This document shows positions 3,279 through 39,375 of a DNA stretch of 64,000 bases, in pieces (position 1 is the stretch's first letter; each line of letters starts with the position of its first letter). Under the pieces are notes generated by a model. The model was not told the DNA's origin and ran no database searches. It saw only the letters and a list, made by a program, of their open reading frames with translations. A program made the position numbers and the translations under genes. The stretch comes from Natronorubrum aibiense (GTDB lineage Archaea > Halobacteriota > Halobacteria > Halobacteriales > Natrialbaceae), in contig NZ_CP045489.1 in the NCBI RefSeq assembly GCF_009392895.1, positions 310,001 through 374,000 of the forward strand. The letters run 5' to 3'.

Positions 3279-3779
3279 TCAGAAATGGACGTCTGCCGGT
3301 ACGATCCAGCACATCTCGCTCTCGTCAGTAGTCTCGAGGAGTCGATCGAGGTGTCCGCGATGACGGATGCCAGTCGCATGTTGATCGTACAAGCAGATCG
3401 ACGGGCCACGAGAAGCACCGGCCCGTTTGAAGGCGTGACGGGCAAGGCCCGCATCGCGCATGATCTCATCGTCGCTGCGTTCCTCGAGTGTAGTTTTCAC
3501 CCGATTCAGATTGCGTTGGAACGTTTCCGTCGTGGTCTCCCAGGCCCGCTCGAGGAGGTCTTTGCCTTCCTCTGATGTGATGGGCGCAGCCGTCGGCAGG
3601 TCACCCCACCGTGCTTTTCCAGCCACTGTTGTCTTCTCTTCGTCGAAGGTAACGTAGTAGTCGAACGCTGCACAGCAATGCGGCTCCGCGCCGACCAGTC
3701 GATCGAACACTGTCTTCCCGGTTGACAGTGCCTCGTCTGCTGTCGATGCCTCTACCAACGAATAAATGATCATATGCAT
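3279..3779 (-). CDS. Haloarchaeal conserved protein, copy 1 of a duplicated pair
   Basis: This 166-aa soluble protein begins 'MHMIIYSLVEASTADEALS'. It carries 'FDYYVTFDE', 'RWGDLPTAAPITSEEGKDLL' and a C-terminal 'SICLYDQHATGIRHRGHLD' segment, and ends with a conserved 'WIVPADVHF'. I know the sequence type from haloarchaeal accessory regions but not its function. The layout (substrate-like 'YYVTFDEE', 'GIRHRGHLDRLL') is shared with the 294-aa protein at 14524-15408, so the two may be distant relatives. It lies just upstream of, and is almost certainly co-transcribed with, the zinc-ribbon gene. Copy 2 is at 9431-9931. Confidence 0.85.
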   Translation of the reverse strand: MHMIIYSLVEASTADEALSTGKTVFDRLVGAEPHCCAAFDYYVTFDEEKTTVAGKARWGDLPTAAPITSEEGKDLLERAWETTTETFQRNLNRVKTTLEERSDDEIMRDAGLARHAFKRAGASRGPSICLYDQHATGIRHRGHLDRLLETTDESEMCWIVPADVHF

Positions 3780-9430: not shown

Positions 9431-9931
9431 TCAGAAATGGACGTCTGCCGGTACGATCCAGCACGTCTCGCTCTCATCATTCTCTTTGAGGAGTCGATCG
9501 AGGTGTCCGCGATGACGGATGCCTGTCGCATGTTGATCGTACAAGCAGATCGACGGGCCACGAGAGGCACCGACACGTTTGAAGGCGTGACGGGCAAGGC
9601 CCGCGTTGCGCATAATTTCGTCGTCGCTGTGTTCCTCGAGTGCTTGCTTCACTCGGTTCAGATTGCGCTGGAACTCTTTCTTGGTGGTCTCCCAGGCCCG
9701 CTCGAGGAGTTCTTCGCCTTCACCCGATGTGATGGGCGCAGCCGTTGGCAGGTCACCCCACCGTGCTTTTCCAGCCACTGTCGTGTCCTCTTCGTCGAAG
9801 GTGACGTAGTAGTCGAATACTGCACAGGACTGCGGCTCTGCACCGACTAGTCGATCAAACACCGTCTGTCCAGTTGAAAGCGCTTCTTCTGCTGTCGATG
9901 CCTCTACCAGTGCGTAGATGATCATATGCAT
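9431..9931 (-). CDS. Haloarchaeal conserved protein, copy 2 of a duplicated pair
   Basis: This 166-aa protein is near-identical to the one at 3279-3779, with the same 'MHMIIYALVEASTAEEALS' start and 'CWIVPADVHF' end. Differences are scattered and mostly conservative (for example 'HCCAAFDYY' against 'SCAVFDYY'), as expected for two functional copies. It is the first gene of the pair, and the conserved hairpin at 9988-10010 lies in its leader. Confidence 0.85.
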   Translation of the reverse strand: MHMIIYALVEASTAEEALSTGQTVFDRLVGAEPQSCAVFDYYVTFDEEDTTVAGKARWGDLPTAAPITSGEGEELLERAWETTKKEFQRNLNRVKQALEEHSDDEIMRNAGLARHAFKRVGASRGPSICLYDQHATGIRHRGHLDRLLKENDESETCWIVPADVHF

Positions 9932-14523: not shown

Positions 14524-15408
14524 TCATTCTGGGCTCGGCCCATAGCGCGGCGTCCCGCAGATCTGGCACTTCCAGATTGCGTGGCCGGTCCAGGTTTCGT
14601 CGGGAACCGATTCATGATCGCTGAATCGATGATCGGTTGTGCGTCCGCACTGGTGACACTCGAGGCGTTCTTTGGTTGGAAGGGGACTGTCCTGACGCTC
14701 AGGGTCACGTTCTTGAGGTGCCTGCTGGAGGGCAATTGCAGGAACTAGCCACGCATCATCACCGGCGTTGTCGAGCAGCGTCGCAAGTCGCTGCTCGTCG
14801 TGAATACCGGATCCACTCTCGTCGTAGAGATACGTTGTTGGTCCGAAGTCGCTATCCACCGGTGATTGGTCAGTCCACGCTGTTCGATCGCGGGCTGCCG
14901 CGAGAAGTTGCTCACCATCGGTGGATGTAATTCGTACTGCAGCAGGAAGCATGGGCCACTGGTCGGTCAATTGGGCTGCAGGCTCGTCCTCGAGATCATA
15001 GATGATCGTGCAGTCGTCGACCGTTGATTCCGTCACACTCGAGGCAAGGAGCGTCGCAGCGGCCCCACCTTTCGCGACGGCGCCGTAGAACGTCGACGAC
15101 TCGACCAGCATGTGGACGACGCCGAGGAGTGTCCACTCTGGTGCTGGTGCGTCTGTCTCAGAAGAGGAGTTCTCGAGATGATTGGTGAGACAGAACAGAC
15201 ATTTCGTCTGGTCAGCTGGGATCGGTGCGCCACAGGATCGACACTCGGTATCCGTTTCCGCTGGTGTGTCTGGATATCCAGTCGTCGCCGTCGCAACCCG
15301 CTGTCGATCAGGCTCACCGTCGTTACACTCGCTGAGTGTCTCATCTGGAACATCCGACGCTTCACCGGTCGGACGAAGTTCCTCAAAATCAGAATATCGA
15401 TCAGTCAT
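14524..15408 (-). CDS. Haloarchaeal protein with two zinc ribbons
   Basis: This 294-aa acidic protein has an N-terminal zinc knuckle pair ('CRSCGAPIPADQTKCLFC', about 56-73) and a C-terminal pair ('CHQCGRTTDHRF' and 'KCQICGTPRYGP'). The middle domain (about 90-250) includes 'ALQLTDQWPMLPAAVRITSTD'-like and 'YLYDESGSGIHDEQRLATLL' segments. The latter echoes 'LYDQHATGIRHRGHLDRLL' of the duplicated 166-aa proteins, so a shared fold is possible. The family occurs on haloarchaeal plasmids and islands without known function. It is monocistronic, with an ATG start that fits. Confidence 0.8.
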   Translation of the reverse strand: MTDRYSDFEELRPTGEASDVPDETLSECNDGEPDRQRVATATTGYPDTPAETDTECRSCGAPIPADQTKCLFCLTNHLENSSSETDAPAPEWTLLGVVHMLVESSTFYGAVAKGGAAATLLASSVTESTVDDCTIIYDLEDEPAAQLTDQWPMLPAAVRITSTDGEQLLAAARDRTAWTDQSPVDSDFGPTTYLYDESGSGIHDEQRLATLLDNAGDDAWLVPAIALQQAPQERDPERQDSPLPTKERLECHQCGRTTDHRFSDHESVPDETWTGHAIWKCQICGTPRYGPSPE

Positions 15409-25621: not shown

Positions 25622-26890
25622 TTATTTGGAGCTATCGCCGAATAATCGTCCCCACAGAGAGGCTGTCTCTGAAGCGGTATCACAGTCGGATGTCGTCTCG
25701 GCTTGTTCTTCTCGAGTCTGCTTGATCTCGCGGTCACGCTCTGCAAGTTCGGTTTTGAGATCCTCGATCGTTGCCTCGAGACGATCGATACGCTCATTTT
25801 TCTGTTCGAGCGTAGTCTCGAGTTCGTCGACACGGTCGGTCAACAGTCGGTTCTTCTCGACCAGATACGCACGGTTCCTATTCCGTCCCGATTTGTCACG
25901 GCTGGCAGTGGCCGACGGCTCGCTCGTTCTAGGAACAGATTCGGTTGATGTCTCTCGAGTGTCCGGGTCGTAGAACTCGGAGGTACTCGAAATCGCTCGT
26001 TCGATGGTCTTCTCGCCGTACGTAGAGCCGTCTGCGTAGTGGACTTCGTCCCACTTGTCTCGAAGTAGTCCCGATTGGCGGAAGAGCCGATCCATCTGCT
26101 GGTGGTCACCGCCAGTCCAGAACGCCAGCAAACAGCACAGAGCCATGTCTGCTTCTGACTGACTCTCATAACCGGCAGTCGAACCACGCCATAACCGCTC
26201 GAACTTCTCACCGTTCGATGCGTTCTGCGCTCGCTCGAGCAGCTCCTCGTCATCGAGATCAACGTCAGTATCGGCTGCACTGCCCGTCGTTTCCGTCTCG
26301 TCGCTAGTGCGATGGTTCCCAGAGTCGTGCTCTGGATCCGGCTCAGAGTCTTGGACGTACTCACGATGGATCGCAACCAGCGCGTCCTGCCGACGTGCAA
26401 CGCGAGGTGGTGTGTCCTCGAGGCGGTCGCAAGTCACGGTGAAAAACCGAGCAGTGTCATACAGTTCGATACTGCCACGGCGGTTCCGTCCATCTGGGAG
26501 TTCTCCCTTGATGAGTACATGGAACCCAGTACCCGACGGAGAGGTCTCCGTATAGGAATCAAGTCGTTCGATGATGTCCAGTGCTGTATCGTCGACGTCG
26601 CCGCTTTCGGGATCTCGACAGTCATCCAGATCCACGCCGACGATGGGATCGTCGTCGGTAAAGACGAATCCGATGCCATCGGCATTTCCTGTATCAGCGT
26701 ACTCGAGGGCTGTCTCGAACGACGCCCATGTTTCGGGATCCGTCGATGACGCGAACGCACCACTCCCTGGCGTCACTGGTATCTTCGTCGGCTTCCCATC
26801 CCGAAGTTCTTCTTTCCAGCACACCCACTGGTCACGATTTCGCAAGTCTGCTGGGAGTACTGTTCTATCGAATGATGGTGTAGAACTCAT
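25622..26890 (-). CDS. Primase-polymerase-like replication protein
   Basis: The N-terminus (about 1-180 of 422 aa) reads 'LPADLRNRDQWVCWKEELRD', 'KIPVTPGSGAFASSTDPETW', 'GIGFVFTDDDPIVGVDLDDC' and 'SPSGTGFHVLIKG'. This is the pattern of phage/plasmid primase-polymerase (NrS-1-like) N-terminal domains, with catalytic acids in 'GVDLDDC'. The middle has 'LLAFWTGGDHQQMDRLFRQS', a PriCT-like helical segment. The C-terminus (about 330-400) is a long coiled coil. It probably initiates replication of the element. There is no helicase domain. Iteron-like repeats lie just upstream. Confidence 0.82.
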   Translation of the reverse strand: MSSTPSFDRTVLPADLRNRDQWVCWKEELRDGKPTKIPVTPGSGAFASSTDPETWASFETALEYADTGNADGIGFVFTDDDPIVGVDLDDCRDPESGDVDDTALDIIERLDSYTETSPSGTGFHVLIKGELPDGRNRRGSIELYDTARFFTVTCDRLEDTPPRVARRQDALVAIHREYVQDSEPDPEHDSGNHRTSDETETTGSAADTDVDLDDEELLERAQNASNGEKFERLWRGSTAGYESQSEADMALCCLLAFWTGGDHQQMDRLFRQSGLLRDKWDEVHYADGSTYGEKTIERAISSTSEFYDPDTRETSTESVPRTSEPSATASRDKSGRNRNRAYLVEKNRLLTDRVDELETTLEQKNERIDRLEATIEDLKTELAERDREIKQTREEQAETTSDCDTASETASLWGRLFGDSSK

Positions 26891-27049
26891 TGGCAATACC
26901 CCCGAGGGGCACTTACTGAGTCCCTCGAACAAACTATATCAGAATATAGATAGAAATGTCGATTCTGTGTATGGTGTCTAAGCTCCCTGTCCCCGCATCG
27001 TTCTGCGGATGGAACCCAGTGTATACTAGTTGGTTTTGGGTGGTACTTT

Positions 27050-27134
27050 TGCGTGGACAGCGTTTCTGTCATGCGATTCTGCGTGGACAGGAGTGTCCAT
27101 GCAGTTTTCGTGGGTAGCCGATCTGCGTGGACAG
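27050..27134 (-). repeat. Iteron-like repeats upstream of the primase gene
   Basis: TGCGTGGACAG occurs three times on the plus strand (27050-27060 as TGCGTGGACAG, 27080-27090 and 27124-27134). An inverted near-copy, TGTCCATGCA, is at 27094-27103. They lie in the 325-bp gene-free gap between the coupling ATPase and the primase-like gene. Repeats of this kind bind plasmid replication initiators or act as operators. Confidence 0.65.
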
Positions 27135-27257: not shown

Positions 27258-30200
27258 TCATTGGTCAAGGAGGGAGTACCCCTCTTGCGTCAGAGTCAGG
27301 CCGGTGTAGAACTGGACACGATCCCCGTCCACTCTGGAGCGATCAACGTCGAAGTCAACGACATCCTGTAACTTCCGAGTGAACCAGCCCTTGGTCGTCC
27401 CATCGATATTTTGCTGCTCAGTCCAGATATCGTACGCCTGAAACAGATCATCCTGTGATACTCTAGCACCCTCGATCTGCCTGAGATACGTTGCTGCAAA
27501 CGCTTCCACACCGTCTCCGGTTGGATCGATCTCGCTCAACTCGTCCATCGTTGACGAATCAGAACCCGGTAACGCCGGCGGCGCGTTCTGATCATTGTCA
27601 GATATCGAGTTGTCAAATTGGGCAGACTCACCAGTCGGTCCAGTAGGCCACAACTCCTCACGACCTGGGTTTGTGGGGAGCCGATATGTCTCACCAGACT
27701 GGAAAACCAGTGGGTCGCCACCGGGTGGTAGAATCAACACGACATAACTGTCCCGTGAGTAGTCTGCATCTGGCAGGTCGACAGCAGGAATGAACGGTCG
27801 TTTAATCAGTGTCCAGTCCTGTTCAAACTCATCTTTCGAGTCGTATACATGGGTCTCTCCAGCCTGATAGACGGAATATTGGCCAGTTTCACGGTCATGG
27901 CTGTAATAGGCTGGAACGCTGTCTTTCGAGAGTACTCCGCCATCAGGGACACGAGCGAACTCCGTGTTCCCATCGGAAAGGACGCGCTCGCCGTTGTCGC
28001 GTATCCAGACGGTCTGATTTGTCTCGAATGTCCGTGGTCGAATCGCAGTGACACCGCCGTGAGCTGTCGCACCACCGCCGAAGGTCACAACCTCGTCGCA
28101 GTTATAGAACTGTTCAGTACCGTCCGTTCGCTCTCGGAACGGCGGCGAGAGGATATTCTCGACTCGTGACGCAACCTGTGTCTCAGATTCTCCAGGTCGA
28201 ACAACGAAGATCGGAATGCGGTCTTCCTCGTGAGCGCGTTTGAGATTCTGCAGAACCTTCGCCGGTCGGTCGGGCGTTGTTGTCTCAGCCTCGATGTTAA
28301 ACACCACATCGTGATCTGGGTGCGTGGCAACTGCATCAGGTTGCTCGCTCCCATCTTGCTCGAGGATCTCGACACTGAACCCGCGTTCAGTGAGCGCTAC
28401 CTCAGTATCCAGAAGCACTTCATCGTGGCTAGTTCCACCAGCCGAGCCGCCAGTGCCCGTCTTGGGCCGGACCAACTCTTCACCCTCGTCGGTGAGCCGA
28501 GCGACGATCTCATCGTTCTGCAGATCGACCTCGATCAACTGCGAGGCATCACGCACGTCCGGCAGGTCTTCGTATGCATAGTCAATCTCGGGCTCAGTCT
28601 TCTCGAGGCGAGCCACGAGTTCCTCGTCAACAGCCGTGACCTCGACCCAGCCATTTGCCTCTTGCACACCCTCTCGAATTTGGACTGTGCGGAGAGCTTC
28701 TGCCATGGTCTCGTCCAGTATCTTCGTCGGATTGGCAGCCTCATTGGCGTCGCTGTAGATGAGGTTCTGGAGTATTTCCGCGTCCGTTAGCGGGTCAGTT
28801 CCGTAGCGCTCGAGGCTCTGTTCGATGATATCATCGACGTCGTCTGTCCCACGGAGAGGCGGATATGGCGGAAACGTCCGGATTAAGACCGGTTCGGAGT
28901 ATCGCCCTCCAGAGAGAGGAATCCGCGTCCACACTTTGAACTGGTCGGTCGTGATGAGGTCTTCTGCGGTGTAGTCACGGAACCGTTTCATCAATAATTC
29001 CGCGTCATCACTGTCGTTGACCGAGAACGTGAGGAGGTTGTCACAGTTGTTCTGCATCGCTTTCAGTGTGTCCTCGTCAAACTGCGACGGATACTGCGAG
29101 GCAAGGGTCACGGAGAGCCGCATCGACCGGGCTCGAGCCAGCATTGACTCGATGTCGAGATTGTCACTGGCGATATCATCGAACTCGTCACAGAGGACGA
29201 AGTAGGGATCTGGCGTCGTATCCAACTCATACGATCGCCGCTGAATCGCACTCCAGAGATTCCGCATCACGCCGAGCGTGACCATCTTCTTGATATCCGT
29301 ATTCTCGACGGGCGTTCGGACGATAACGATCCGGTCGTTGTCGATGATGTCTCGGAAATCGATCGTGCTCTCACGATGGGCAATGATCCGACGAATCACC
29401 GAATTCTCGACCCACGATTTGATCCGTTTCAGCAGTGGTCGAATCGTCTCCTCTTCCATCTTCGCAATCTCGAGGCAGAACTCCCTGATGTAGGGGTCCT
29501 CAACATCGAGCGCGAAGTCTTCGCGTCGCTCGGCGTTGAGCAACGTGAAGTACATATCGATGATCGAGAACGGCTTCTCCGATTTCATCATCGCTCGAGC
29601 CATTGACTCGGTGATCGCCTCCATGTTGATGCCCCAATAGTCGGAGGTGTCGAAGACAGCTTTCAGATTCTCGACCCGGCTTTCAATCTCGTTCTCGAGT
29701 TCCTCGCGCGTCTCACACTCGGGGACCTCGAGGAAATTGAGCCCGATCGTCTTCTCGTGGGTGGTCGAGCCGGGCTCGATCCAAACCACGTCCTTGAGAC
29801 GATGTTTGGGGAGCATCCGGAGGAGCTCTCGAGAGTCACGGCCCTTCGGGTCGAAATACGTGAAGCCATAGCCGGAGTAGGCCCACTGGACCATCATATT
29901 CAGGAGTTCGGTCGTCTTTCCGTAGCCGGTCGTTCCAGCGATCCAGGTGTGCCGAAAGAGCGATTCGAAACGGAGCGGCGCCTCACGAAAGCCAGTCTGC
30001 GGATCCTCTGAATAGCCGATCCAGAGTGGAGCTGGTGCATTGTACATCCCCGCTTCGAACATTTCTCGAACGAAGGGGCCTGCAACTGTCCCCTCGTCGA
30101 CTGTCTCCGTGATAACCTTCTTCCCACCAATACGAATCGTGTTCTGTTCTACGATATCGTATTGTTCACCGTGTTGTTGGTGGGTGGACGATTCAGCGGT

Positions 30201-30302
30201 CGTGTTTTCTTCCGGCTGTTCATCGCCTCCAGCAGTTTGCTCATCTTGTTGGTCGTCACTGGAAGCCTCGTCGCCGGATCCAAAGAAGCGATCAAGCACC
30301 AT
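27258..30302 (-). CDS. VirD4/HerA-type coupling ATPase with extra C-terminal domains
   Basis: This 1014-aa protein has Walker A 'GTTGYGKTT' (123-131) and Walker B 'FVLCDEFDD' (368-376), with arginine-rich sensor segments, as in VirD4/TraG/HerA ATPases that pass DNA to a secretion channel. There is no N-terminal membrane helix. Residues ~625-700 ('PDAVATH...NIEAETTT', 'RPAKVLQNLKRA') look like a PD-(D/E)xK nuclease-type core. The last ~75 residues resemble the winged helix of D5-type primases. ATG 30300-30302 overlaps the upstream gene by 11 bp; the frame extends to 30377. Confidence 0.85.
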   Translation of the reverse strand: MVLDRFFGSGDEASSDDQQDEQTAGGDEQPEENTTAESSTHQQHGEQYDIVEQNTIRIGGKKVITETVDEGTVAGPFVREMFEAGMYNAPAPLWIGYSEDPQTGFREAPLRFESLFRHTWIAGTTGYGKTTELLNMMVQWAYSGYGFTYFDPKGRDSRELLRMLPKHRLKDVVWIEPGSTTHEKTIGLNFLEVPECETREELENEIESRVENLKAVFDTSDYWGINMEAITESMARAMMKSEKPFSIIDMYFTLLNAERREDFALDVEDPYIREFCLEIAKMEEETIRPLLKRIKSWVENSVIRRIIAHRESTIDFRDIIDNDRIVIVRTPVENTDIKKMVTLGVMRNLWSAIQRRSYELDTTPDPYFVLCDEFDDIASDNLDIESMLARARSMRLSVTLASQYPSQFDEDTLKAMQNNCDNLLTFSVNDSDDAELLMKRFRDYTAEDLITTDQFKVWTRIPLSGGRYSEPVLIRTFPPYPPLRGTDDVDDIIEQSLERYGTDPLTDAEILQNLIYSDANEAANPTKILDETMAEALRTVQIREGVQEANGWVEVTAVDEELVARLEKTEPEIDYAYEDLPDVRDASQLIEVDLQNDEIVARLTDEGEELVRPKTGTGGSAGGTSHDEVLLDTEVALTERGFSVEILEQDGSEQPDAVATHPDHDVVFNIEAETTTPDRPAKVLQNLKRAHEEDRIPIFVVRPGESETQVASRVENILSPPFRERTDGTEQFYNCDEVVTFGGGATAHGGVTAIRPRTFETNQTVWIRDNGERVLSDGNTEFARVPDGGVLSKDSVPAYYSHDRETGQYSVYQAGETHVYDSKDEFEQDWTLIKRPFIPAVDLPDADYSRDSYVVLILPPGGDPLVFQSGETYRLPTNPGREELWPTGPTGESAQFDNSISDNDQNAPPALPGSDSSTMDELSEIDPTGDGVEAFAATYLRQIEGARVSQDDLFQAYDIWTEQQNIDGTTKGWFTRKLQDVVDFDVDRSRVDGDRVQFYTGLTLTQEGYSLLDQ

Positions 30303-31479
30303 CAAATCCCTCCTGTTCTCGAGTTGGTTCTTCAAAACGGACTGGTGTCTCGTTCGGAACGCCAGGGGTCTGCTCATCTACCGATGATTCATCAGCTGCG
30401 TATCGACTCCCATCTGCTGGCAGCCGGTCACCACGCTGTGTGTACCGCCAGTCGATCTTTGGCGTCTCAATCTCCGCATTGGGGATGTGTGCGACGCCGG
30501 CGAGTTCGTCGACAGTCATAATCATGTGCCGGTCGATCCACTCACGGTCACACATCCGCTCGACGAACTGTCGAAGTCGCGTTGCGCGTTTTCGCTCTCG
30601 GCGATGCCAGACTGGATTGTCGTTCAGGCCCTGTTCAGTGATCGCGTTGTAGTACTTCCTGAACATCCCTGCGACGCCACGAGCGCGGGCCTCGGCTTCG
30701 GCCTGTTCGCTCGAGGCAGCGAGGACGCGAATGTTCACGTGGAACGCCTGTTGGCCGCGTTGCTGTTCGATGGTTTTCGCGGCCTGTTTGTCCTTCTCAG
30801 TCGGCGGTCGCGTACGAGGGTTAAGCCAGCCGACGGACGTCCCTTGTCGGAGTGCATGAGCGAGTTCGTCGACGCTATTGTGCTTGAACCGGTCGCCGTC
30901 GGTCCACGACTGTTTCGCCGGCCGGAAAACAACCTGCGTAACGACTGTACTCTCATCGAGCGACAGCATTTCACTCGTGATTTCGCCGTAGGGATCCGTC
31001 TCGAAGCCCTCGCTGTTGTGATGGCGGATCGGATAGTAGGGAATCTTCTCTATCTCGAGCCACGCGCCGGCGACGTACTCGTCAGCGTCGATAATGGGGA
31101 ACGCATAGCCTTCCTCGACCGGGAAGACCTCGCTGTTGGCGTAGTTGTTCCCGACACGCCGGCGGAACTTGTCCGCAGCTGCCTCGGTGGCAGCGTGCAT
31201 GTAGAACTTGATCTTCCCTTCGTCGAACCAGACCTCAAAGGAGTGGTGGTCGCTCGTATTCTTCCCGCGGAAGTTCGTCGTCACATCGTGGACTGACTGG
31301 AGGACTCCAGCCCCGTCCGCGATACCGTTGTTCTCTTTGTAGGGACGGATCCGAAGCAGCGTGCCTGGCGTATCCGCTTGCCGTTGGACAAACGAATCGT
31401 GCTCTCCGAAGTTGAGTTGCGTCGCCTCGTACTGTGGCGACGAACTCAGGATTGCCTTGATTTGGTTGAACCTAGTCAT
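30292..31479 (-). CDS. Conjugation accessory protein of archaeal type IV systems
   Basis: This 395-aa soluble protein begins 'MTRFNQIKAILSSSPQYEAT'. It contains 'SFEVWFDEGKIKFYMHAATE', 'DKFRRRVGNNYANSEVF' and, later, 'QAFHVNIRVLAASSEQAEAE'. The same kind of domain is found fused in front of the ATPase in other type IV coupling proteins (my inference). Here it is a separate gene wedged between VirB4-type and VirD4-type ATPases, overlapping both (8 and 11 bp). It likely works with the coupling ATPase. The ATG at 31477-31479 is chosen because of the tight overlap. Confidence 0.75.
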   Translation of the reverse strand: MTRFNQIKAILSSSPQYEATQLNFGEHDSFVQRQADTPGTLLRIRPYKENNGIADGAGVLQSVHDVTTNFRGKNTSDHHSFEVWFDEGKIKFYMHAATEAAADKFRRRVGNNYANSEVFPVEEGYAFPIIDADEYVAGAWLEIEKIPYYPIRHHNSEGFETDPYGEITSEMLSLDESTVVTQVVFRPAKQSWTDGDRFKHNSVDELAHALRQGTSVGWLNPRTRPPTEKDKQAAKTIEQQRGQQAFHVNIRVLAASSEQAEAEARARGVAGMFRKYYNAITEQGLNDNPVWHRRERKRATRLRQFVERMCDREWIDRHMIMTVDELAGVAHIPNAEIETPKIDWRYTQRGDRLPADGSRYAADESSVDEQTPGVPNETPVRFEEPTREQEGFDGA

Positions 31480-34400
31480 GGTTTTGGATGTCAGACTCCG
31501 TTTCAGCTGTGTCCTGTGCAGTAGCTGATTCCCCACCATCAGGCCGGACAGACGATTTCTCACTGTCTGTCTCGAGGGCATGTTCAACGATCACATCGAG
31601 AACATCCGATTTCGTGAGATCTGCCTCGAGAAGCCGACTGGCCGCGTCTGCGCTGAGATCGAGACGCGTTGCAAGCGCGTTGCGCTGGGCCTCGTTCTCG
31701 ACGAACTCTTCGAAGGCGAGCAACTCTGCTGGCTCGTCACGAATCGCCTGCTTGATGAAGGCCTGATCCTCGGGCTCGTAGTCGATAACCCGTTTCTCGA
31801 AGTCGTCAGCGACGATATGCAGCGGGTACGTTCCGTGTTCCTCGACGCGAACGAGTGCCTGACTGTAGCCAAGGTCTTCGTTGCCGGCGTCGGCACCTCT
31901 GATGTACCGGCGCTGCTCTTCGGTTAGCCCGATCTTGTCGGCCGTCCGCTCATCCAGCTCGGGGAGTTTGTGGAGAACCTTGATCGGACACATGCCGATA
32001 ATCTTCTCTGCCTGCTCAGTTTCGTAGAATTCCTGGGCCGTCTGCGAGAGTAACACCATCCGAAGCCCTGCGTGGCGTTGGTGCCGGAACGCCGTCTCGA
32101 GGAAGTCGAGGTTAGCTTGGTCCTCGAAGAGGTAGTGGGCTTCATCGATCGCGAGCTCGACGTTCCGGTGGGTGTTTTTCGCCTGCTGGTAGATCGTCGA
32201 GAGTAGCAGCTGCATCAGGAACGTCTGGCGATCGATTCCCGATGCACTGCCTTCGATCTGCCCGAGGTCGATATAGACGACCTTGTTATCGCCCTCGAGG
32301 ATATCGATCTCAGAGTGATGAGAGAGGTTCTCGTAGGCCCCTCCCTCGCGGAATGGCTGGAACGCAATCGCAAGTTCGTCTGCATACTGTGCGGCACGCT
32401 CGCGCGCCGAATCTGACTCCGCGATATTGTGCTCGTCCGGATTTTCGGCGGTATCACAGAGAATTCGGTGAACGTCCTGCATCGTCGGTGAGTTTTCCGA
32501 CGTATGCGTCGAGACGTCATCCTCGACGACGCCTGCTTGCCGGTAGGCTTCGTCGATGACATACGAGAGGACACCCGTCTCGGTTCCGAGTTCGATATCG
32601 CGAGCGTTGAGAAAGTTCTCGAGGATGGCGTAGACTTCGTCTTTTTTCGCCGACAGGGGAGAGATTCCCTCTCCAGAATCGAGGATATGCTGGGGAGTCT
32701 CGCGGATCTCGAGTGGGTTCAGCTTTGTGTCACCACCAACGGTGATCGTCTTCGCGTTCAGCGCGTCTGCGATTCCACGGAAGCCACCAACTGGGTCGAC
32801 GAGAACGAGCATCGTGTCGTTGCGGCGTTTCATCATCCGAAGGTGGCGCATGATATCGCCAAACGTTTTCCCAGCACCAGGCATCCCGACGACGAGTTCG
32901 CTATGTCCTGTCTCGAGCGCCCATGGGTTGATCCGGATCGGAGAGCCGTTGTGGCCATGATAGCCGTATTCGATACCCTCGTCCATCATCAGGTAGTTCG
33001 ACGAGAACGGAAACATCGCGCCGACGGCTTGGTTCGTCAGCGTCGACATACGATCACGGCCGAGTTCGTTCGCGCCAAGTGGCGACACGGTTGCGAGGCC
33101 ACGTTCCTGCCAACGACTCGCGACCTTGAGCGTACAGTTCGCCGGCGCATCCTTGATGATCGACCGCAGGCGCGTCGTGTGATTGTCGAGTTCCTGTTCA
33201 CTGTCAGCAGCAAGGCGAATGAACACACCACCGCGGTAGAACGACGCTTTGTTCGCGCGAACGAGCGATCGCATGTACTTCGCCTGATCGATGTCCTCCT
33301 GGAGATCCTCGGATTTGAGGCTGTTCGAGTCGTGTTGATTGATCTTCAAATCCGAGATCCAGTCCGCCATCATGTCCTGTGCAGATTGACTATCGAACGG
33401 ATCGAGGTGGATGCTGATCTCGGTCTGCAACTCCGTGTCGAGCAACAATCGCTCGAGGAGGCCATCTGGCGGTTCCTCGGGGAACTGTTCGATCCAGAAC
33501 GTGCGGACGTACGTCTCATCATTGATTACAGCGTAGGTCGTTTCCCAGTCGACCGTCGACGGCGCAATTACCGACTGATGCATCGTCGACGTATCTGGTA
33601 GGTGGTCATCAGTTCCATCTGATAAGTCGTTGATGGTGTCTTCACTACGATCGCTCAAGGGCGTATCTGACGGGCTGTCGTGCTCGGCAATCGCATCGAG
33701 GACGTCATCGGGATCAGGCGTCGCTGGAACGCCGTCGCTCATTCCATGCGAGACGACCGGGAACGTGCCGAGCGCGCTCGTGATATCGGCGTATTCTTCC
33801 GGGAGACACGTCCAGTACTCCTTCGTGATCCGAGCAAGATCGTAGGCATCAACAGGGCTAACCGAACACCGATAGAGCGACGACCCACCACGGCGGAGTT
33901 GTGTGAGTCGTGACTCGAGGTGTTCTTCTTTGAATTGCTCTCGTTCGGCGTCGGTCAGGTCGTCGGTTTGGAACCGACCGAAGAACCGTCCAATAGCGGG
34001 AAGATCAGCAAGATAGGCGAGGACACTGTCATCAGTTGCGTCGAAATGCTCAACATCTCCGTCGTTCACCGCGGTGATGAGGTAGTACTCGCGGATCGTG
34101 GTCGTCTCGGAGTCGATTTCTCCGTTGTCAGTCGTATTCGCCGCAACGTACTCCTCGAGCAGTCGTTTCAATACGGGGCGTGAGCGAACGTCGGCATCAG
34201 CGAGCCGATCCTGGTGTGCACGGACGATCTCGTCTTCATCGACCTCGCGGCTGGTAACGTAGATCTTCACTGGAAAGTCGACAGTCGAGTTGACAAACTC
34301 GGACAACGACTGAACGGCCTTCGCCCATGCATCGTCGTCCTCGAGGGCCATGTTCGCGGGCTCGACTTTCATGGCCCCGACGAGTGCGCCATCCGTTCGT

Positions 34401-34774
34401 TCGATGGCATGCGGATACACTCGTTGGAGGCGTGTCAAATACCGGACCTCGCTATTGTCTTCGTCACCGTGCGTGTACTCCTTGTTCTTGATCGCCCAGC
34501 TCAGACGGGCAGCGAGCCACTCGGTGAGCCACAGATATCGGGGCTTGACTTTGTGGAGCAAGAACAGCAGCGTCGTAAGCATGAGTCCGAATCCCAGGAC
34601 TGGAATCGTCAGTGCCGCCGGGACGAACGTCGCTGCAACAACCGTGACGAACGCCACTGCGAGAAATAGCATGAGTTCGCCGATCGTGTAGCCCCGGAAG
34701 AAGGCCGTTGTGCCACCCAGCGACTGATGGATCTTTCGCGCGTTGTACTCGCTATCGGCTGTGTTCGTACTCAT
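31472..34774 (-). CDS. VirB4/TraC-type conjugation ATPase
   Basis: This 1100-aa protein begins 'MSTNTADSEYNARKIHQSLG' and has two membrane segments (about 32-54 and 58-75), like VirB3/PrgI fused to VirB4. A long CagE/TrbE-like N-terminal domain follows. The P-loop is 'GMPGAGKT' (630-637) and Walker B is 'ELAIDEAHYLF' (873-883). VirB4 proteins power assembly of the conjugative channel and pilus at the membrane. ATG 34772-34774 lies 5 bp past the upstream stop; a GTG at 34786 is an alternative start. It is the central gene of the operon. Confidence 0.93.
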   Translation of the reverse strand: MSTNTADSEYNARKIHQSLGGTTAFFRGYTIGELMLFLAVAFVTVVAATFVPAALTIPVLGFGLMLTTLLFLLHKVKPRYLWLTEWLAARLSWAIKNKEYTHGDEDNSEVRYLTRLQRVYPHAIERTDGALVGAMKVEPANMALEDDDAWAKAVQSLSEFVNSTVDFPVKIYVTSREVDEDEIVRAHQDRLADADVRSRPVLKRLLEEYVAANTTDNGEIDSETTTIREYYLITAVNDGDVEHFDATDDSVLAYLADLPAIGRFFGRFQTDDLTDAEREQFKEEHLESRLTQLRRGGSSLYRCSVSPVDAYDLARITKEYWTCLPEEYADITSALGTFPVVSHGMSDGVPATPDPDDVLDAIAEHDSPSDTPLSDRSEDTINDLSDGTDDHLPDTSTMHQSVIAPSTVDWETTYAVINDETYVRTFWIEQFPEEPPDGLLERLLLDTELQTEISIHLDPFDSQSAQDMMADWISDLKINQHDSNSLKSEDLQEDIDQAKYMRSLVRANKASFYRGGVFIRLAADSEQELDNHTTRLRSIIKDAPANCTLKVASRWQERGLATVSPLGANELGRDRMSTLTNQAVGAMFPFSSNYLMMDEGIEYGYHGHNGSPIRINPWALETGHSELVVGMPGAGKTFGDIMRHLRMMKRRNDTMLVLVDPVGGFRGIADALNAKTITVGGDTKLNPLEIRETPQHILDSGEGISPLSAKKDEVYAILENFLNARDIELGTETGVLSYVIDEAYRQAGVVEDDVSTHTSENSPTMQDVHRILCDTAENPDEHNIAESDSARERAAQYADELAIAFQPFREGGAYENLSHHSEIDILEGDNKVVYIDLGQIEGSASGIDRQTFLMQLLLSTIYQQAKNTHRNVELAIDEAHYLFEDQANLDFLETAFRHQRHAGLRMVLLSQTAQEFYETEQAEKIIGMCPIKVLHKLPELDERTADKIGLTEEQRRYIRGADAGNEDLGYSQALVRVEEHGTYPLHIVADDFEKRVIDYEPEDQAFIKQAIRDEPAELLAFEEFVENEAQRNALATRLDLSADAASRLLEADLTKSDVLDVIVEHALETDSEKSSVRPDGGESATAQDTAETESDIQNHD

Positions 34775-34779
34775 TGAGA

Positions 34780-35991
34780 TCACCACCTCGAGACCTTCTC
34801 TTTCGTATTTTTGAGTCCACGCTTCGCTCGAGTCGATGCCTTCTGTGTGGCCTTCCGAGCGTCATCGGCGGCCTTATCTCGAATTCGACCTGTCTCGGAC
34901 TTTCGCAGGTTGTTGTAGCGGCCGGCGTGATCCTTCGTCGAGCGGGCCGAAGAGCCGAGTTTGTACGCTTTCGAATTACCGCTCCCGAGTGTGGTCTGGC
35001 CACTCTTCGTTACGGCACCAATCTGGTTGTCCGCATATCCACGGTGGACGTTTCGGGCACCACGAACTGCTTTTCCAGAGGTGCGCTTTGCCTTTGCAGC
35101 GCCAGCTTTGGCCGCTGCGGGATTCGTCGTAGATGCTCCTTTCTGAGCGATCGTCCGTATTGCAGGACTACTCCAGTAGACCGTCATGACCATCGCAATA
35201 ATCGCAGCAGGAATCAGCGTCAATCCGATAAACAACGAGAATAGCTCGTTCTGGCCGAGCGTCTCAATACCACCAACTTCCCAACCAATTCGGAAGAGTA
35301 GAGATGCCGGAATTCCGGCAAGTACTAATCCAGGATAGATCCCGGCAACTCGACGGGCCATATTTGCTGCTGGAGTGAATGGCCAGACATCAAGTGCCCA
35401 GATTACACCTAAAAACGGCATAGTTACTGTCAACACAAATACTCCAACCCAACGGAGAGCAACAATGAATCCAGCAACAACCAAAAACAGGTTCGAGATA
35501 GCAACCATCGCAAGAATCGTAAATGTGCCTCCAAGAGTTGACTGAATAAGTCCTCCAAGTCCTGCTGACATTTCTTCAATTGGTGCAACCGTCATTCCGA
35601 CTGCATCAATAAACTGCAAGGGAATCGAGACTAGTGGGAACCAAACGAATGTCCCCATAAACACAAGACCTAGCCGCCTCAGAAGGCGCTTTCGTCTATA
35701 GTCACTTATCGAACCAGAACGAACGCCGACAAATGCGGCAGCAATGACAATCATCATAATCGCCAATGGCATAATATACGCTAAGTAAACATCTTGATAC
35801 AAACTTGCCCAAGGCTCATAACTTGGCGTTCCGACGACAATATAACTCGAATCCGACACGGGTGCTGGAACACCCACAATCGGTCTCAACAATGCCTCAT
35901 AGATTTCGTTTATCAGACCAAGAAGTGCATTGGTGATTCTCTCCAGAACACTTTCAATCGCATTCTCGACTTCTTCTTGCAGCCATGCCAT
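34780..35991 (-). CDS. VirB6/TrbL-like polytopic membrane protein
   Basis: This 403-aa protein has an amphipathic N-terminus ('EVENAIESVLERITNALLGL'), then about six membrane segments (70-280). A ~120-residue basic, disordered C-terminus follows, rich in K, R, A and G. The layout and its position just before the VirB4 gene match VirB6/TrbL channel components, although sequence identity in that group is always low. The basic tail may contact DNA or other subunits. It is tightly packed with neighbours on both sides. Confidence 0.78.
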   Translation of the reverse strand: MAWLQEEVENAIESVLERITNALLGLINEIYEALLRPIVGVPAPVSDSSYIVVGTPSYEPWASLYQDVYLAYIMPLAIMMIVIAAAFVGVRSGSISDYRRKRLLRRLGLVFMGTFVWFPLVSIPLQFIDAVGMTVAPIEEMSAGLGGLIQSTLGGTFTILAMVAISNLFLVVAGFIVALRWVGVFVLTVTMPFLGVIWALDVWPFTPAANMARRVAGIYPGLVLAGIPASLLFRIGWEVGGIETLGQNELFSLFIGLTLIPAAIIAMVMTVYWSSPAIRTIAQKGASTTNPAAAKAGAAKAKRTSGKAVRGARNVHRGYADNQIGAVTKSGQTTLGSGNSKAYKLGSSARSTKDHAGRYNNLRKSETGRIRDKAADDARKATQKASTRAKRGLKNTKEKVSRW

Positions 35992-36855
35992 CTAATTCTC
36001 ACCTCCGTCAGATAGCGATTTGCCTTGGCCCTCCTCGACAATTGAGAGGTTACACGACTGGTCCCCTCCATACTTGATTTGCTGTGTATACGATGAATTC
36101 TGCCCTACTTGAACGACAGCTGTCACTGTCATCGGTTCTGTTCCTAATTCGCTACAATCAAGCGACCCACCTGCACCACTCGTTTGGTAAATCTGACTAA
36201 ACGAATAGACAGTAGTTTTACCAGGTGGCAGGCGTGTCTCATGGTAGTACGATACTGTATCATCCAGTCCAAGCTTAGCAGCTGGAGCACCTTTCCACCG
36301 AAGTTCAGTAAGTAACGAAGGGATCGTACCCTTGTTCTCAATAACGACTGCTGCGTACTCATCCCAGACAGGCGAGTTCTTATCCCACTCCATGTCGGGG
36401 TTCTCCGCTGCCCACAGCACATCCGTAATCGTACACTCTGCCTCGAGCGTGATTGTCGTCGTATCGACCTGCTCGTCCCCATCGAAGGCAATCAGTTCAT
36501 AGTCTCCAGTAGGAGTACTGTCCTCATAGCGACCGAGAACTTCGAATGACGTCGTGGTCTCACCATTCGCGAGACGCTGTTGGTCGAATAACTCACCGTT
36601 CGGATCGATGAGATTGATAAACTCCACCGACACATCATCAGCAACTTCGATCTCGAGGTTTGCGTCACTCATCTCGACAGAGGTGAAGACGTCACTCCCT
36701 TCGGCGCTAATTCCGTTGTCATCCGTGCTGTTGTTCGGTGGGTCTGCGGACGGTTCCGAGGTACAGCCAGCAAGCGCAGCTGTACTCGCACCGAGGCTGG
36801 CAAGGACTGTTCGGCGAGCGATACGACTCTCGTCCGTGTGAGTGCGTTCTGTCAT
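35992..36855 (-). CDS. Tat-type lipoprotein of the conjugation operon
   Basis: The ~287-aa protein has a twin-arginine lipobox signal ('RRTVLASLGASTAALAGC'), an acidic Ser/Thr-rich linker, and beta-sandwich-like repeats ('FINLIDPNGELFDQQRLANG', 'YELIAFDGDEQVDTTTITLE'). It is probably anchored outside the membrane and may shape the mating surface or channel exit. ATG 36853-36855 overlaps the upstream stop by 4 bp; the longer frame to 36936 has no signal. Function within transfer is inferred from the operon. Confidence 0.8.
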   Translation of the reverse strand: MTERTHTDESRIARRTVLASLGASTAALAGCTSEPSADPPNNSTDDNGISAEGSDVFTSVEMSDANLEIEVADDVSVEFINLIDPNGELFDQQRLANGETTTSFEVLGRYEDSTPTGDYELIAFDGDEQVDTTTITLEAECTITDVLWAAENPDMEWDKNSPVWDEYAAVVIENKGTIPSLLTELRWKGAPAAKLGLDDTVSYYHETRLPPGKTTVYSFSQIYQTSGAGGSLDCSELGTEPMTVTAVVQVGQNSSYTQQIKYGGDQSCNLSIVEEGQGKSLSDGGEN

Positions 36856-38606
36856 TGTTGATGTGTAAGTCCAAGGAATGTGCCACCTGACAGGTAGTCG
36901 AACCCGTAGACGGCCAAGGAAACTGGGAGAAACCAAAGCAGTGTCACGAGAACCAACTGGACAATCTTCTGGAACTCAGGATACTTCGGAGGAATCTTCG
37001 CACGGTCCTCTGCTCCAGAGTATAGTTGGTCTGTACGCCACCACTCCGCTGGGATGTACTGGCCATCAACGAGCAAAGATGGCCTCTCCTCGAGTTCAAG
37101 AACGGCCATTCCACTGGCGTTCACAGCAGCCGATTGATTGGCGACTTCGACGTGACCACTCGTAACCGGCTCATCGGTCGCTGTCTCCGTGACTCGTGCC
37201 TGCACAAGGACTCCTGACGAGTTCGCTTCGAGAACCGTCAGATTCAGCTTTGTTTCGCGAACGGTTCCGTCGTCATCGATCGAGACTGTCTGCGACTGGC
37301 CACGTACGATACCATGGACGGTTACCTCGTCAAAGGTCGCCGCTGGCAGTCCCTCTGACTGGACGGCAATCGACGTTGCGTCCACGTAGCGATCGACAGT
37401 TGGAATGTCGATCGCTTCTGGGAGGGTTGGACCATTTCGTGTACTGCCCCACGCCTCTTCGATAACTAACGACGGCCCGTCATCATCCGTTCCCCTGCTT
37501 GGTATATCCGGCCGTTCCTGCGTAGGGACGGCGTGGATCTGTGTGGGACGAACAGACGAGTTCGTACGAGTGGTCTCTGTTTTCGTTCGCGTGACCATCG
37601 TGTGCCAGCCGTCTACGGCCGCAGCGTAGAACCGCCAGTTTCCGCGAAGACGTGCGTCAGTAGCCACATCGATTGCTGACCACGTGGAGCCAGGATGGAC
37701 GACGACACCAGTCCGGTTCTCATCGCTTTCGAACGTAACGCGTTTCCCGCCACTAGCATCGATCCGCGTCACGACGGTGTGCTGGGAATCGCTCACTGTT
37801 ACCCGGTCAGTCGGGTACTCAATTTCAGTCTCCCACGAACCCTCACAGGAATCTGCGGTACTGTTGTACTCCTCGCACGTTCGTCGTTCATGACGAAGAC
37901 GAACGGAGATCTCTGTATCTACAGTGAGATTCTGCGTTCCAGACAGTCCACTGTACTCGAGAGTGGGGCGCTGGCTGCTGTTGGAGTCGAGTACCTGCCC
38001 GTCTGCCTGGAGTTCGACACTGTCGACAGCCGTCTCAGCGATCGACCACTGTTCTCGAACGGATCCACTCGTATTATCGTCTGGAATACGGACCCGGTAA
38101 TCGGTTATCGAGAGCACCTCGCCGTCTGGTGCAATATACTGAGTCGAGTTATTCCCCGAGTGTAACACCGTCGACGGCTGCACCGCAAAGATGCTCGTGT
38201 ACGCATCACTGATGTAGAGCCCATCCTCGAGTTGTGCTCCTTCTGGATGAACCGAGGTCTCTTCATCGCCAGGAGTGAAATCCTGGATATCACCCCTGTT
38301 CCAGATATCGACGTCTTCGATCGGGTCGTCGAACGAGACATCTGTTGAGTCCGCAAGCCGAGTCGAAAACTCTCCAGCAGAGGAGACGTTCTCCTCAAAC
38401 TCGTCACTCGAGCGATTTCCCTGATCGACGTCTTCCGACCACAGCAGTGGGAACCGCGTCTCGTTCACCCCGTACACTGGTCCATCGTCGGGAATCACCG
38501 GGCTCGAATGTGGCTCGGCTGCAGCGACACCGACAGTCAAGCCAACAACACTCCCACTCACGGTAAGGAGTGCAAGGGCGACAGTGATCGCACGTGGCGG
38601 GGTCAT
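36852..38606 (-). CDS. Large secreted membrane-anchored protein of the conjugation operon
   Basis: This 584-aa protein has a Sec-type signal ('AITVALALLTVSGSVVG', cleavage near 'AAAEP'), a long acidic extracellular region, and a C-terminal membrane anchor (about 548-570: 'IVQLVLVTLLWFLPVSLAVY'). The ectodomain has Asn-x-Ser/Thr sequons and two Cys pairs ('TCEEYNSTADSC'). No enzyme motif is seen. Its size and place suggest an adhesin or surface component used in cell contact during transfer. It overlaps the lipoprotein gene by 4 bp. Confidence 0.8.
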   Translation of the reverse strand: MTPPRAITVALALLTVSGSVVGLTVGVAAAEPHSSPVIPDDGPVYGVNETRFPLLWSEDVDQGNRSSDEFEENVSSAGEFSTRLADSTDVSFDDPIEDVDIWNRGDIQDFTPGDEETSVHPEGAQLEDGLYISDAYTSIFAVQPSTVLHSGNNSTQYIAPDGEVLSITDYRVRIPDDNTSGSVREQWSIAETAVDSVELQADGQVLDSNSSQRPTLEYSGLSGTQNLTVDTEISVRLRHERRTCEEYNSTADSCEGSWETEIEYPTDRVTVSDSQHTVVTRIDASGGKRVTFESDENRTGVVVHPGSTWSAIDVATDARLRGNWRFYAAAVDGWHTMVTRTKTETTRTNSSVRPTQIHAVPTQERPDIPSRGTDDDGPSLVIEEAWGSTRNGPTLPEAIDIPTVDRYVDATSIAVQSEGLPAATFDEVTVHGIVRGQSQTVSIDDDGTVRETKLNLTVLEANSSGVLVQARVTETATDEPVTSGHVEVANQSAAVNASGMAVLELEERPSLLVDGQYIPAEWWRTDQLYSGAEDRAKIPPKYPEFQKIVQLVLVTLLWFLPVSLAVYGFDYLSGGTFLGLTHQQ

Positions 38607-38636: not shown

Positions 38637-39101
38637 TCAGAAAGGTTTGACACAGTCTGAGAAGCCGAATCCCATCTGCCTGCCAACCTTATCGATGAGC
38701 TCTGGTGAGATGAGGGCGAGGACAATGATACCGAACCCAATGCCCGACATCACGAGCTTTTCTTTCGCCTGATTCTTCTTCTCAGGATTGCCGCCTGCAC
38801 GCATGTATGAGAGGCCGGCTCGGCCGACATAGAAGCCAGTTGCCGGGAGGCCAAGGCCTGCGACAGCGCCAAAGACGATACCGATCCCAGTCTCAATACC
38901 GGTCCCACAGTAGACATCACCGACGTTCGACTGTGCAGCGACTGAACTGGTGCTGACAAGCACGAACGCCATCCACACGACAAGCGACGACACTGTTGGG
39001 GACACTCGATCGACGAAGCACCGAGTGCGGTCCAATAGACTGGTTGACTCAACACGGTTAATGGACAATTCGGACGGCTTGGACGACGTATCGTTACTCA
39101 T
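38637..39101 (-). CDS. Pilin-like (VirB2/TrbC-type) membrane protein
   Basis: This 154-aa protein has an N-terminal segment with a signal-like helix (about 40-58, ending 'SSVAAQSNVG'). Two more helices follow ('GIVFGAVAGLGLPATGFYVG' and 'VMSGIGFGIIVLALISPELI') with the basic loop 'NPEKKNQAKEK'. This topology (signal, helix, basic loop, helix) is that of VirB2/TrbC pilins. Identity is inferred from topology and from its place at the start of the operon. ATG 39099-39101 overlaps the upstream stop by 8 bp; the longer frame to 39329 overlaps another gene. Confidence 0.72.
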   Translation of the reverse strand: MSNDTSSKPSELSINRVESTSLLDRTRCFVDRVSPTVSSLVVWMAFVLVSTSSVAAQSNVGDVYCGTGIETGIGIVFGAVAGLGLPATGFYVGRAGLSYMRAGGNPEKKNQAKEKLVMSGIGFGIIVLALISPELIDKVGRQMGFGFSDCVKPF

Positions 39102-39375
39102 GTTTGGCGGGGTTTGAGTTGGAGGGTTCAAGCAGTGCCTGGAGGTCTTCGAGATCAGACGTCCGTTCGGTGAGGTCGTCGAGATCGTACTCGTCGTGAC
39201 GAAGCGCTTCGTTGACGAGCATGACGAGTTCAGGACGGTCAATATCTCGGTAGGCCATCTGCTCGGCCAGTGCTTCACGAAAGAGCCCAGATGCGTTGAT
39301 GCTGGTTGCCCAACTGAGAAACAACGCATCAGCAGGCATAACCGAAACAGTCGTAGTGACGGTGTTCTGCGCCAT
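39094..39375 (-). CDS. Small acidic protein, first gene of the conjugation operon
   Basis: This 93-aa protein begins 'MAQNTVTTTVSVMPADALFL' and is otherwise helical and acidic ('DLDDLTERTSDLEDLQALLE'). No family is recognised. It overlaps the pilin-like gene by 8 bp and follows the operon promoter. A regulatory or chaperone role is possible from position only. Confidence 0.7.
   Translation of the reverse strand: MAQNTVTTTVSVMPADALFLSWATSINASGLFREALAEQMAYRDIDRPELVMLVNEALRHDEYDLDDLTERTSDLEDLQALLEPSNSNPAKHE

Follow-up and report, generated by a model that had tools for sequence, protein, structure and literature searches.

How is plasmid DNA made ready for export through a type IV secretion system (T4SS) when no relaxase can be recognised? 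This question is raised by a gene in a 64,000-nucleotide stretch of the haloarchaeon Natronorubrum aibiense (NZ_CP045489.1, positions 310,001 to 374,000; hereafter the window), which is part of the 431-kb contig C2 in a genome of four contigs. The gene is a minus-strand open reading frame (ORF) at 27258-30377. Its ATG at 30302, a start backed by homologues, gives a protein of 1014 aa. The product is a VirD4/TraG-type coupling ATPase, encoded together with VirB4, VirB6 and pilin genes. We consider it somewhat probable that this protein acts as a relaxase-free module for DNA processing and coupling in a haloarchaeal T4SS. The computed support for this comprises the ATPase family, a predicted fold, an invariant site, a D5-type winged helix, an iteron element that co-varies with that helix, a conserved operon and the replacement of one cassette by another.

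The literature gives the question some weight. Beltran et al. 2023 (PMC9905601) described archaea as being without apparent relaxase homologues and proposed HerA-NurA as the archaeal source of single-stranded DNA. A 2025 review knows of no relaxase on archaeal conjugative plasmids, and unknown relaxases have been suggested (PMC3158045).

A coupling ATPase with additional domains

Three Pfam families of type IV coupling proteins (T4CPs) match the ATPase core above their cut-offs, namely TraG-D_C, TrwB_AAD_bind and T4SS-DNA_transf. This agrees with the first-pass annotation, which had seen a VirD4/HerA core ahead of a nuclease-like region. The core is followed by a winged helix, a domain with a predicted PD-(D/E)xK fold, a beta-rich stretch and a Pox_D5/primase-type winged helix:

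27258..30302 (-), coupling protein (T4CP-NUC), 1014 aa; the open frame reaches 30377; Pfam TraG-D_C 2.4e-5, TrwB_AAD_bind 2.4e-5
28743..30125 (-), FtsK/HerA-type ATPase domain (residues ~60-520); Walker A GYGKT at 126, Walker B LCDEFDD at 370
28470..28700 (-), first winged helix (residues 535-611); AlphaFold2 pLDDT 81-94
28128..28469 (-), nuclease-like domain of predicted PD-(D/E)xK fold (residues 612-725); AlphaFold2 core pLDDT 83.4, pTM 0.76; Foldseek match Hjc 2wcw
27513..28127 (-), beta-rich linker (residues ~726-930), which contains the specificity-swap boundary
27285..27500 (-), C-terminal D5/primase-type winged helix (residues 935-1006); Pox_D5 and PHROG profile matches, co-variation with iterons

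A hydropathy scan found no transmembrane helix in the coupling protein or in the product of its upstream neighbour, p431; the T4CPs of relaxase-type loci have 1-4. Some T4CPs are known to do without N-terminal transmembrane helices. Matches in PADLOC (mad8, HerA) were set aside as generic P-loop matches.

A nuclease-like domain with an invariant site

A PD...ExE...K-like pattern had been noticed at residues ~625-700, and its parts lie there, with PDAVATH at 655, NIEAETTT at 669 and RPAKVLQNLKRA at 679. The bare PD..ExE..K pattern is also present in 491 of 2000 shuffles of the coupling protein (~25%), and for this reason we dropped it as evidence for a nuclease. The domain is credible because its residues are conserved and its fold matches, not because of the motif. 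Four polar residues, H626, D656, E671 and E673, are invariant in alignments of 34, 47 and 45 sequences, methanogens included. The 45 proteins align at 24-84% identity, and the aligned homologues include short coupling proteins of chromosomal islands (640-840 aa), plasmid types of ~900-1550 aa and methanogen proteins from the same phylum. The codons concerned are:

28425..28427 (-), H626, in helix A; invariant in 45/45 sequences
28335..28337 (-), D656 of the PD motif; invariant in 45/45
28284..28292 (-), E671-x-E673; both Glu invariant in 45/45

AlphaFold2 modelled residues 535-790 as a winged helix followed by a PD-(D/E)xK topology, with the alpha-beta-beta-beta-alpha-beta core of that superfamily. 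The best Foldseek match of this core in the PDB is the archaeal Holliday-junction resolvase Hjc (2wcw, E=9e-4, prob 1.00). VRR_NUC (4qbn, prob 1.00) and tRNA splicing endonuclease come next, and the DdmD nuclease domain and RecU lower down. Profile searches by sequence gave no meaningful Pfam or PDB match to the domain. The structure prediction thus assigns it to the PD-(D/E)xK folds, closest to archaeal Hjc, rather than to an unrelated fold.

One part of the original pattern did not survive, since its 'K' is not the lysine of an ExK; the motif is ExE. The putative catalytic site reads H-D-ExE, in which PD and Glu are invariant and the usual helix Glu has become an equally invariant His. The PD-(D/E)xK superfamily includes variants with an altered catalytic triad. 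Because the site departs from ExK in this way, nuclease activity is something that we infer, and the conservation suggests a site that is active but variant.

Some relatives of the gene have unusual architectures. In L054 (5249-9894, minus strand) the coupling gene is broken by an apparent frameshift within the nuclease domain, leaving overlapping ORFs of 1164 aa and 430 aa. Proteins of 778-794 aa without the ATPase occur in L100 (5655-8039, minus strand) and L098 (4566-6899, plus strand); they join a p431-like N-terminal part to the nuclease domain, with a D5-like tail in L098. A 3314-aa ORF in L199 (G008:C29, 2258-12199, minus strand) combines p431, coupling ATPase, nuclease domain and a C-terminal extension of ~1900 aa, and an ORF of 3275 aa in G002 resembles it.

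Cassettes exchanged behind VirB4

The genes of the T4SS operon run along the minus strand in the order pilin, p584, p314, VirB6, VirB4, p431, coupling protein and primase. Those upstream of the coupling gene are:

38637..39329 (-), T4SS pilin; T4SS_pilin 9.8e-9
36852..38606 (-), p584 surface protein; kept in relaxase-type operons too
35992..36936 (-), p314, lipoprotein-like; kept in relaxase-type operons too
34780..35991 (-), VirB6/TrbL-like membrane protein; TrbL_3 1.8e-12
31472..34786 (-), VirB4 ATPase; NF045971 4e-54
30292..31587 (-), p431 partner protein; in some relatives fused to the N-terminus of the coupling protein

Homologues of the coupling protein occur in 117 plasmid records and in 83 of 149 related genomes. 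A search for related loci with a narrow alignment returned 16, nearly all from haloarchaea. A VirB4 gene and a nuclease-bearing coupling protein stand together at 44 loci. In methanogens the arrangement is VirB4 and coupling protein-nuclease, with p431 undetected by BLAST; in haloarchaea p431 lies between the two or is fused to the N-terminus of the latter (L050, L052). Could p431 be a hidden HUH relaxase? Its alignment has no conserved HUH or Tyr, and it reads as an N-terminal partner of the coupling protein.

What follows the pilin...VirB6-VirB4 genes is one of two things: p431 with a coupling protein-nuclease (44 loci), or a NikA-like gene, a PF03432 relaxase and an ordinary VirD4 (12 loci). 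No locus has both. Eleven of the PF03432 loci, all from one genus, carry a VirB4 of the window's lineage (45-48% identity where measured) and a pilin at 43-50%. They keep the order pilin, p584, p314, VirB6 and then continue with NikA-like ribbon-helix-helix (RHH) genes, the relaxase and a TrwB-type coupling protein. A nuclease profile run against these TrwB-type proteins (hmmsearch --max) found nothing, the best E being 0.41. In a VirB4 tree of 56 loci, made by a quick method and with long branches, a fully supported clade unites the 11 relaxase-type rows with 8 window-type rows as sister groups, and this clade branches from among the nuclease types. At least two cassette changes are forced on this tree, the second of which depends on the long-branched L153. 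Relaxosome cassettes and nuclease-type coupling cassettes, as far as gene content and this tree indicate, replace each other behind a homologous VirB4 operon.

An example of the relaxase type is the 132.7-kb Haloarcula marismortui replicon NC_006393, which we take to be pNG500, flagged as conjugative in PMC3158045. Another locus, L167 (G074:C4, 6759-10396, minus strand), has a PF03432-like relaxase adjoining a TrwB-type coupling protein of 997 aa. In its C-terminal part, this protein has an AEP primase-like domain with 32% identity to the window primase. This is a primase-coupling fusion in a relaxase-type element.

A winged helix that co-varies with an origin-like element

The last ~75 residues had been likened to D5 primase winged helices, and profiles bear this out. 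Pox_D5 (PF03288) matches 15/15 homologues tested (best 6.7e-9; the window copy, at 0.013, is below the gathering cut-off), as do the C-termini of PHROG DNA primases (15/15, best 3.2e-11; window copy 4e-6, phrog_1829). Some homologues are named 'primase-like DNA-binding domain-containing protein' by NCBI. Among nuclease-bearing coupling proteins, the D5 helix is limited to the window type and a type of ~1400-1550 aa.

Between the coupling gene and the primase gene lies an origin-like element of three iterons followed by a core:

27124..27134 (-), iteron 1, CTGTCCACGCA
27080..27090 (-), iteron 2, CTGTCCACGCA
27050..27060 (-), iteron 3, CTGTCCACGCA
27022..27034 (-), invariant core ACCAACTAGTATA; single copy in the window, 0.03 expected
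25622..26932 (-), AEP/PriPol-like primase gene, likely start ~26890; NrS-1 polymerase HBD 6.6e-33; DxD and SxH motifs seen in the sequence

In relatives the repeats number 2-5, are similarly spaced and in part inverted; their sequence differs, whereas the core is nearly the same. CTGTCCAGGGTAAA and TGTTCAGGGTAAA are further iterons. Repeat content exceeds that of all 300 shuffles in 10 of 14 loci; three others are weak and L054 has none. Across 2.0 Mb of fetched DNA, every occurrence of the core lies just 3' of a D5-bearing coupling gene or a relic of one; the sole exception is an AT-rich chance match in L093. Where the flank of a D5-bearing locus is long enough, a primase gene is found 3' of the coupling gene. 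No repeats were found near the pilin gene.

What does the D5 helix bind? Very probably the iterons, because the two swap together while the ATPase and nuclease domains stay 95-99% identical. Compared pairwise, L192, L195 and L197 share 97-99% identity in the ATPase, 96-97% in the first winged helix and 95-99% in the nuclease domain, with just 32-38% in the D5 helix and unrelated iterons. Conversely, L192, L193 and L207 have common iterons and D5 helices that are 90-99% identical. The DNA identity falls from >90% to ~50% between roughly -450 and +250 around the stop codon and then returns to 85-99%. With ATPase similarity controlled, iteron similarity correlates with that of the D5 helix (partial Mantel r=0.57, p=0.0002, on iteron strings assigned by eye); neither the nuclease domain nor the first winged helix shows an iteron correlation. 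The physical linkage of helix and iterons as one exchanged block is itself part of this observation.

The core ACCAACTAGTATA may be a plain TATA promoter of the primase. It lies >100 nt upstream of the likely primase start, and the ordered iterons that precede it co-vary with a DNA-binding domain; both speak for something else.

Decayed tails of coupling genes with intact iterons and core are found on two other replicons of this genome, in L212 (G000:C3, 10932-13117) and L213 (G000:C4, 11017-12123). The C3 primase is intact and 86% identical, and the iterons of C3 and C4 differ from those of C2.

Search for relaxases

The first-pass annotation had recognised no MOB-type relaxase in the window, and we found none among the 19 window proteins scanned with Pfam (the T4SS operon and ten larger ORFs elsewhere, not every ORF). 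A clear relaxase gene elsewhere was not found either: PF03432, PF08751 and PF02486 are absent from the whole genome, with positive controls detected, in a search that did not include MOBV, MOBH, MOBC and MOBB profiles. Replic_Relax (PF13814) gave no match, but control genomes were also silent, and there was no Pfam match on 34 domains. The only DUF7845 trace in the genome is a relic of 44 positions on C1. PF03432 is likewise absent from 18/18 complete nuclease-type plasmids.

PF03432 relaxases are present in 30 of 392 haloarchaeal genomes of the order. They are mostly short (175-263 aa), and their presence runs counter to PMC9905601, which describes archaea as lacking apparent relaxase homologues. 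The nuclease domain is also found in 20 of these 30 genomes, a few by weak partial matches only. It lies on a different contig from the relaxase except in two genomes (G103:C3 and G142:C17, at least 80 kb apart). Plasmids bearing PF03432 are typed as non-mobilizable by MOB-suite. We discarded the same label for 115 of the 117 homologue plasmids, because Haloarcula plasmids with the relaxase cassette receive it too.

Proposed mechanism and alternatives

How might such a module work? The C-terminal D5-type winged helix would bind the iterons just 3' of its own gene, and a hexameric motor, with p431, would thereby assemble on its own plasmid at the origin-like element. The Hjc-like domain would then cut or nick the DNA there in a metal-dependent reaction at H626/D656/E671/E673, without forming a covalent protein-DNA bond. 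The ATPase would pass the DNA into the VirB4-VirB6-pilin channel, and the neighbouring primase could prime synthesis of the complementary strand. Catalysis, the cleavage site, DNA export and the role of the primase are steps that we infer. The earlier suggestion that DNA processing could be built into the coupling protein gains from the cassette replacement and from the co-variation of winged helix and iterons, and it remains a reading of sequences in which the catalytic Lys is off its standard place and the iterons are possibly a replication origin.

Several observations count against this proposal. The standard ExK lysine is replaced by Glu, and the basic candidates at 679, 682 and 689 vary (K/R at 679 in 35/45 sequences and at 689 in 40/45). 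The iterons and core are absent from nuclease-type loci without a D5 helix, so the element cannot be the nuclease's general target. What is exchanged behind VirB4 is an entire coupling protein, and the swap alone is no proof that a nuclease replaces a relaxase. A rolling-circle Rep of the DUF7845 family is present on one of the 18 complete nuclease-type plasmids. Finally, the coupling gene of C3 has decayed, and the iterons and an intact primase next to it persist, as could be the case for a replication module. This last point favours the main rival, in which the D5-type winged helix, iterons and primase form a replication initiation module that was joined to the coupling protein. The element would then be a replication origin, and the pump would receive its DNA from replication instead of from nicking by the nuclease. 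The pRN1-type primase-helicase-winged helix proteins do act at an origin just 3' of their own gene (PMC4234260), and the element follows the D5 helix, not the nuclease. We nevertheless judge this rival rather unlikely. No D5/SF3 helicase is seen in the window, the D5 domain is carried by a transfer motor, and in the relaxase-type L167 it is the coupling protein to which a primase is fused. Moreover, two complete nuclease-type plasmids carry separate orc1/cdc6 initiators of their own, which means that they could have a main replication origin other than the element.

The nuclease-like domain could have another task. It might process ends or junctions in concert with the motor, as in end resection by HerA-NurA, or cut double-stranded DNA like a terminase, rather than nick to initiate transfer. 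Hjc and VRR-NUC are its nearest folds, and HerA-NurA is what Beltran et al. proposed for making the transferred strand. We doubt this, as it leaves the link to a single specific cis element unexplained and the NurA fold differs. It is quite improbable, in our view, that transfer is started by a relaxase from a family not yet recognised, encoded on the element or at another place in the genome, while the nuclease-like domain is inactive and serves DNA binding, exclusion or defence. ExE in place of ExK would suit such a role, several operon genes belong to no known family, and the archaeal DUF7845 Rep family, recognised only recently, is linked to some integrative and conjugative elements (PMC13107129). 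However, four identical polar residues in 45 proteins as divergent as these argue for catalysis, and the relaxase families searched are absent, DUF7845 being just a relic. In addition, the conserved partner p431 shows no HUH or Tyr pattern, and a complete plasmid of 42 kb shows no relaxase.

Relation to known systems

Conjugative plasmids of the Haloarcula pNG500 type have homologous pilin, p584, p314, VirB6 and VirB4 (45-48% identity) in the same order. They differ in having NikA-like RHH proteins, a PF03432 relaxase and a membrane-anchored TrwB-type coupling protein, and the nuclease domain, p431, the iteron element and the primase gene were not found there. The first-pass view of a design different from bacterial conjugation therefore holds for this archaeal lineage but not beyond it, since these Haloarcula elements of the same family have a MOBP-type relaxase.

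Like VirD4/TraG/TrwB coupling proteins, the window protein is an FtsK/HerA-type motor encoded after VirB4 in a T4SS operon; unlike them, it has no predicted transmembrane helix, a separate N-terminal partner in p431, an extra winged helix, the nuclease-like domain and the D5 winged helix. It shares the predicted fold and the PD and Glu positions with archaeal Hjc and VRR-NUC nucleases, but has His for the first acidic residue, Glu for the ExK Lys and a fusion to a coupling ATPase. A D5-type winged helix, an AEP primase and a DNA element just 3' of the gene recall primase-polymerases of the pRN1 ORF904 and NrS-1 type. In the window, however, the primase is a separate gene, no SF3 helicase is seen, the winged helix sits on a transfer motor and the iterons are not the pRN1 stem-loop. 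HerA-NurA and the Ced/Ted DNA import systems also pair a HerA-family motor with a nuclease and no relaxase, but NurA is a separate protein of RNase H fold, and Ced/Ted are chromosomal importers.

FtsK/HerA motors, PD-(D/E)xK nucleases and D5 helices are all known parts, and there is a sizeable chance that their combination amounts to a distinct mechanism. We found no description in the open-licence literature of a coupling protein-nuclease-D5 fusion, or of its exchange with a relaxosome.

Elsewhere in the window, near-identical 166-aa paralogues lie at 3279-3779 (-) and 9431-9931 (-), with a related stretch in 14524-15408 (-).

Implications

The module occupies the position of the relaxase kit in otherwise matching archaeal operons, and it provides a testable answer to how plasmids could transfer without a relaxase in many archaea. 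The candidate is concrete, in that four residues can be mutated, a cis element of 110 nt can be deleted and a DNA-binding domain has swappable specificity. A natural control exists in the sister operons, where a VirB4 of the same lineage comes with a classical relaxase cassette. More tentatively, haloarchaea and some methanogens may conjugate without any relaxase. The motor would find its plasmid through a swappable iteron-reading domain, cut with a built-in Hjc-like nuclease and export the DNA, and module and relaxosome would be interchangeable on one T4SS chassis.

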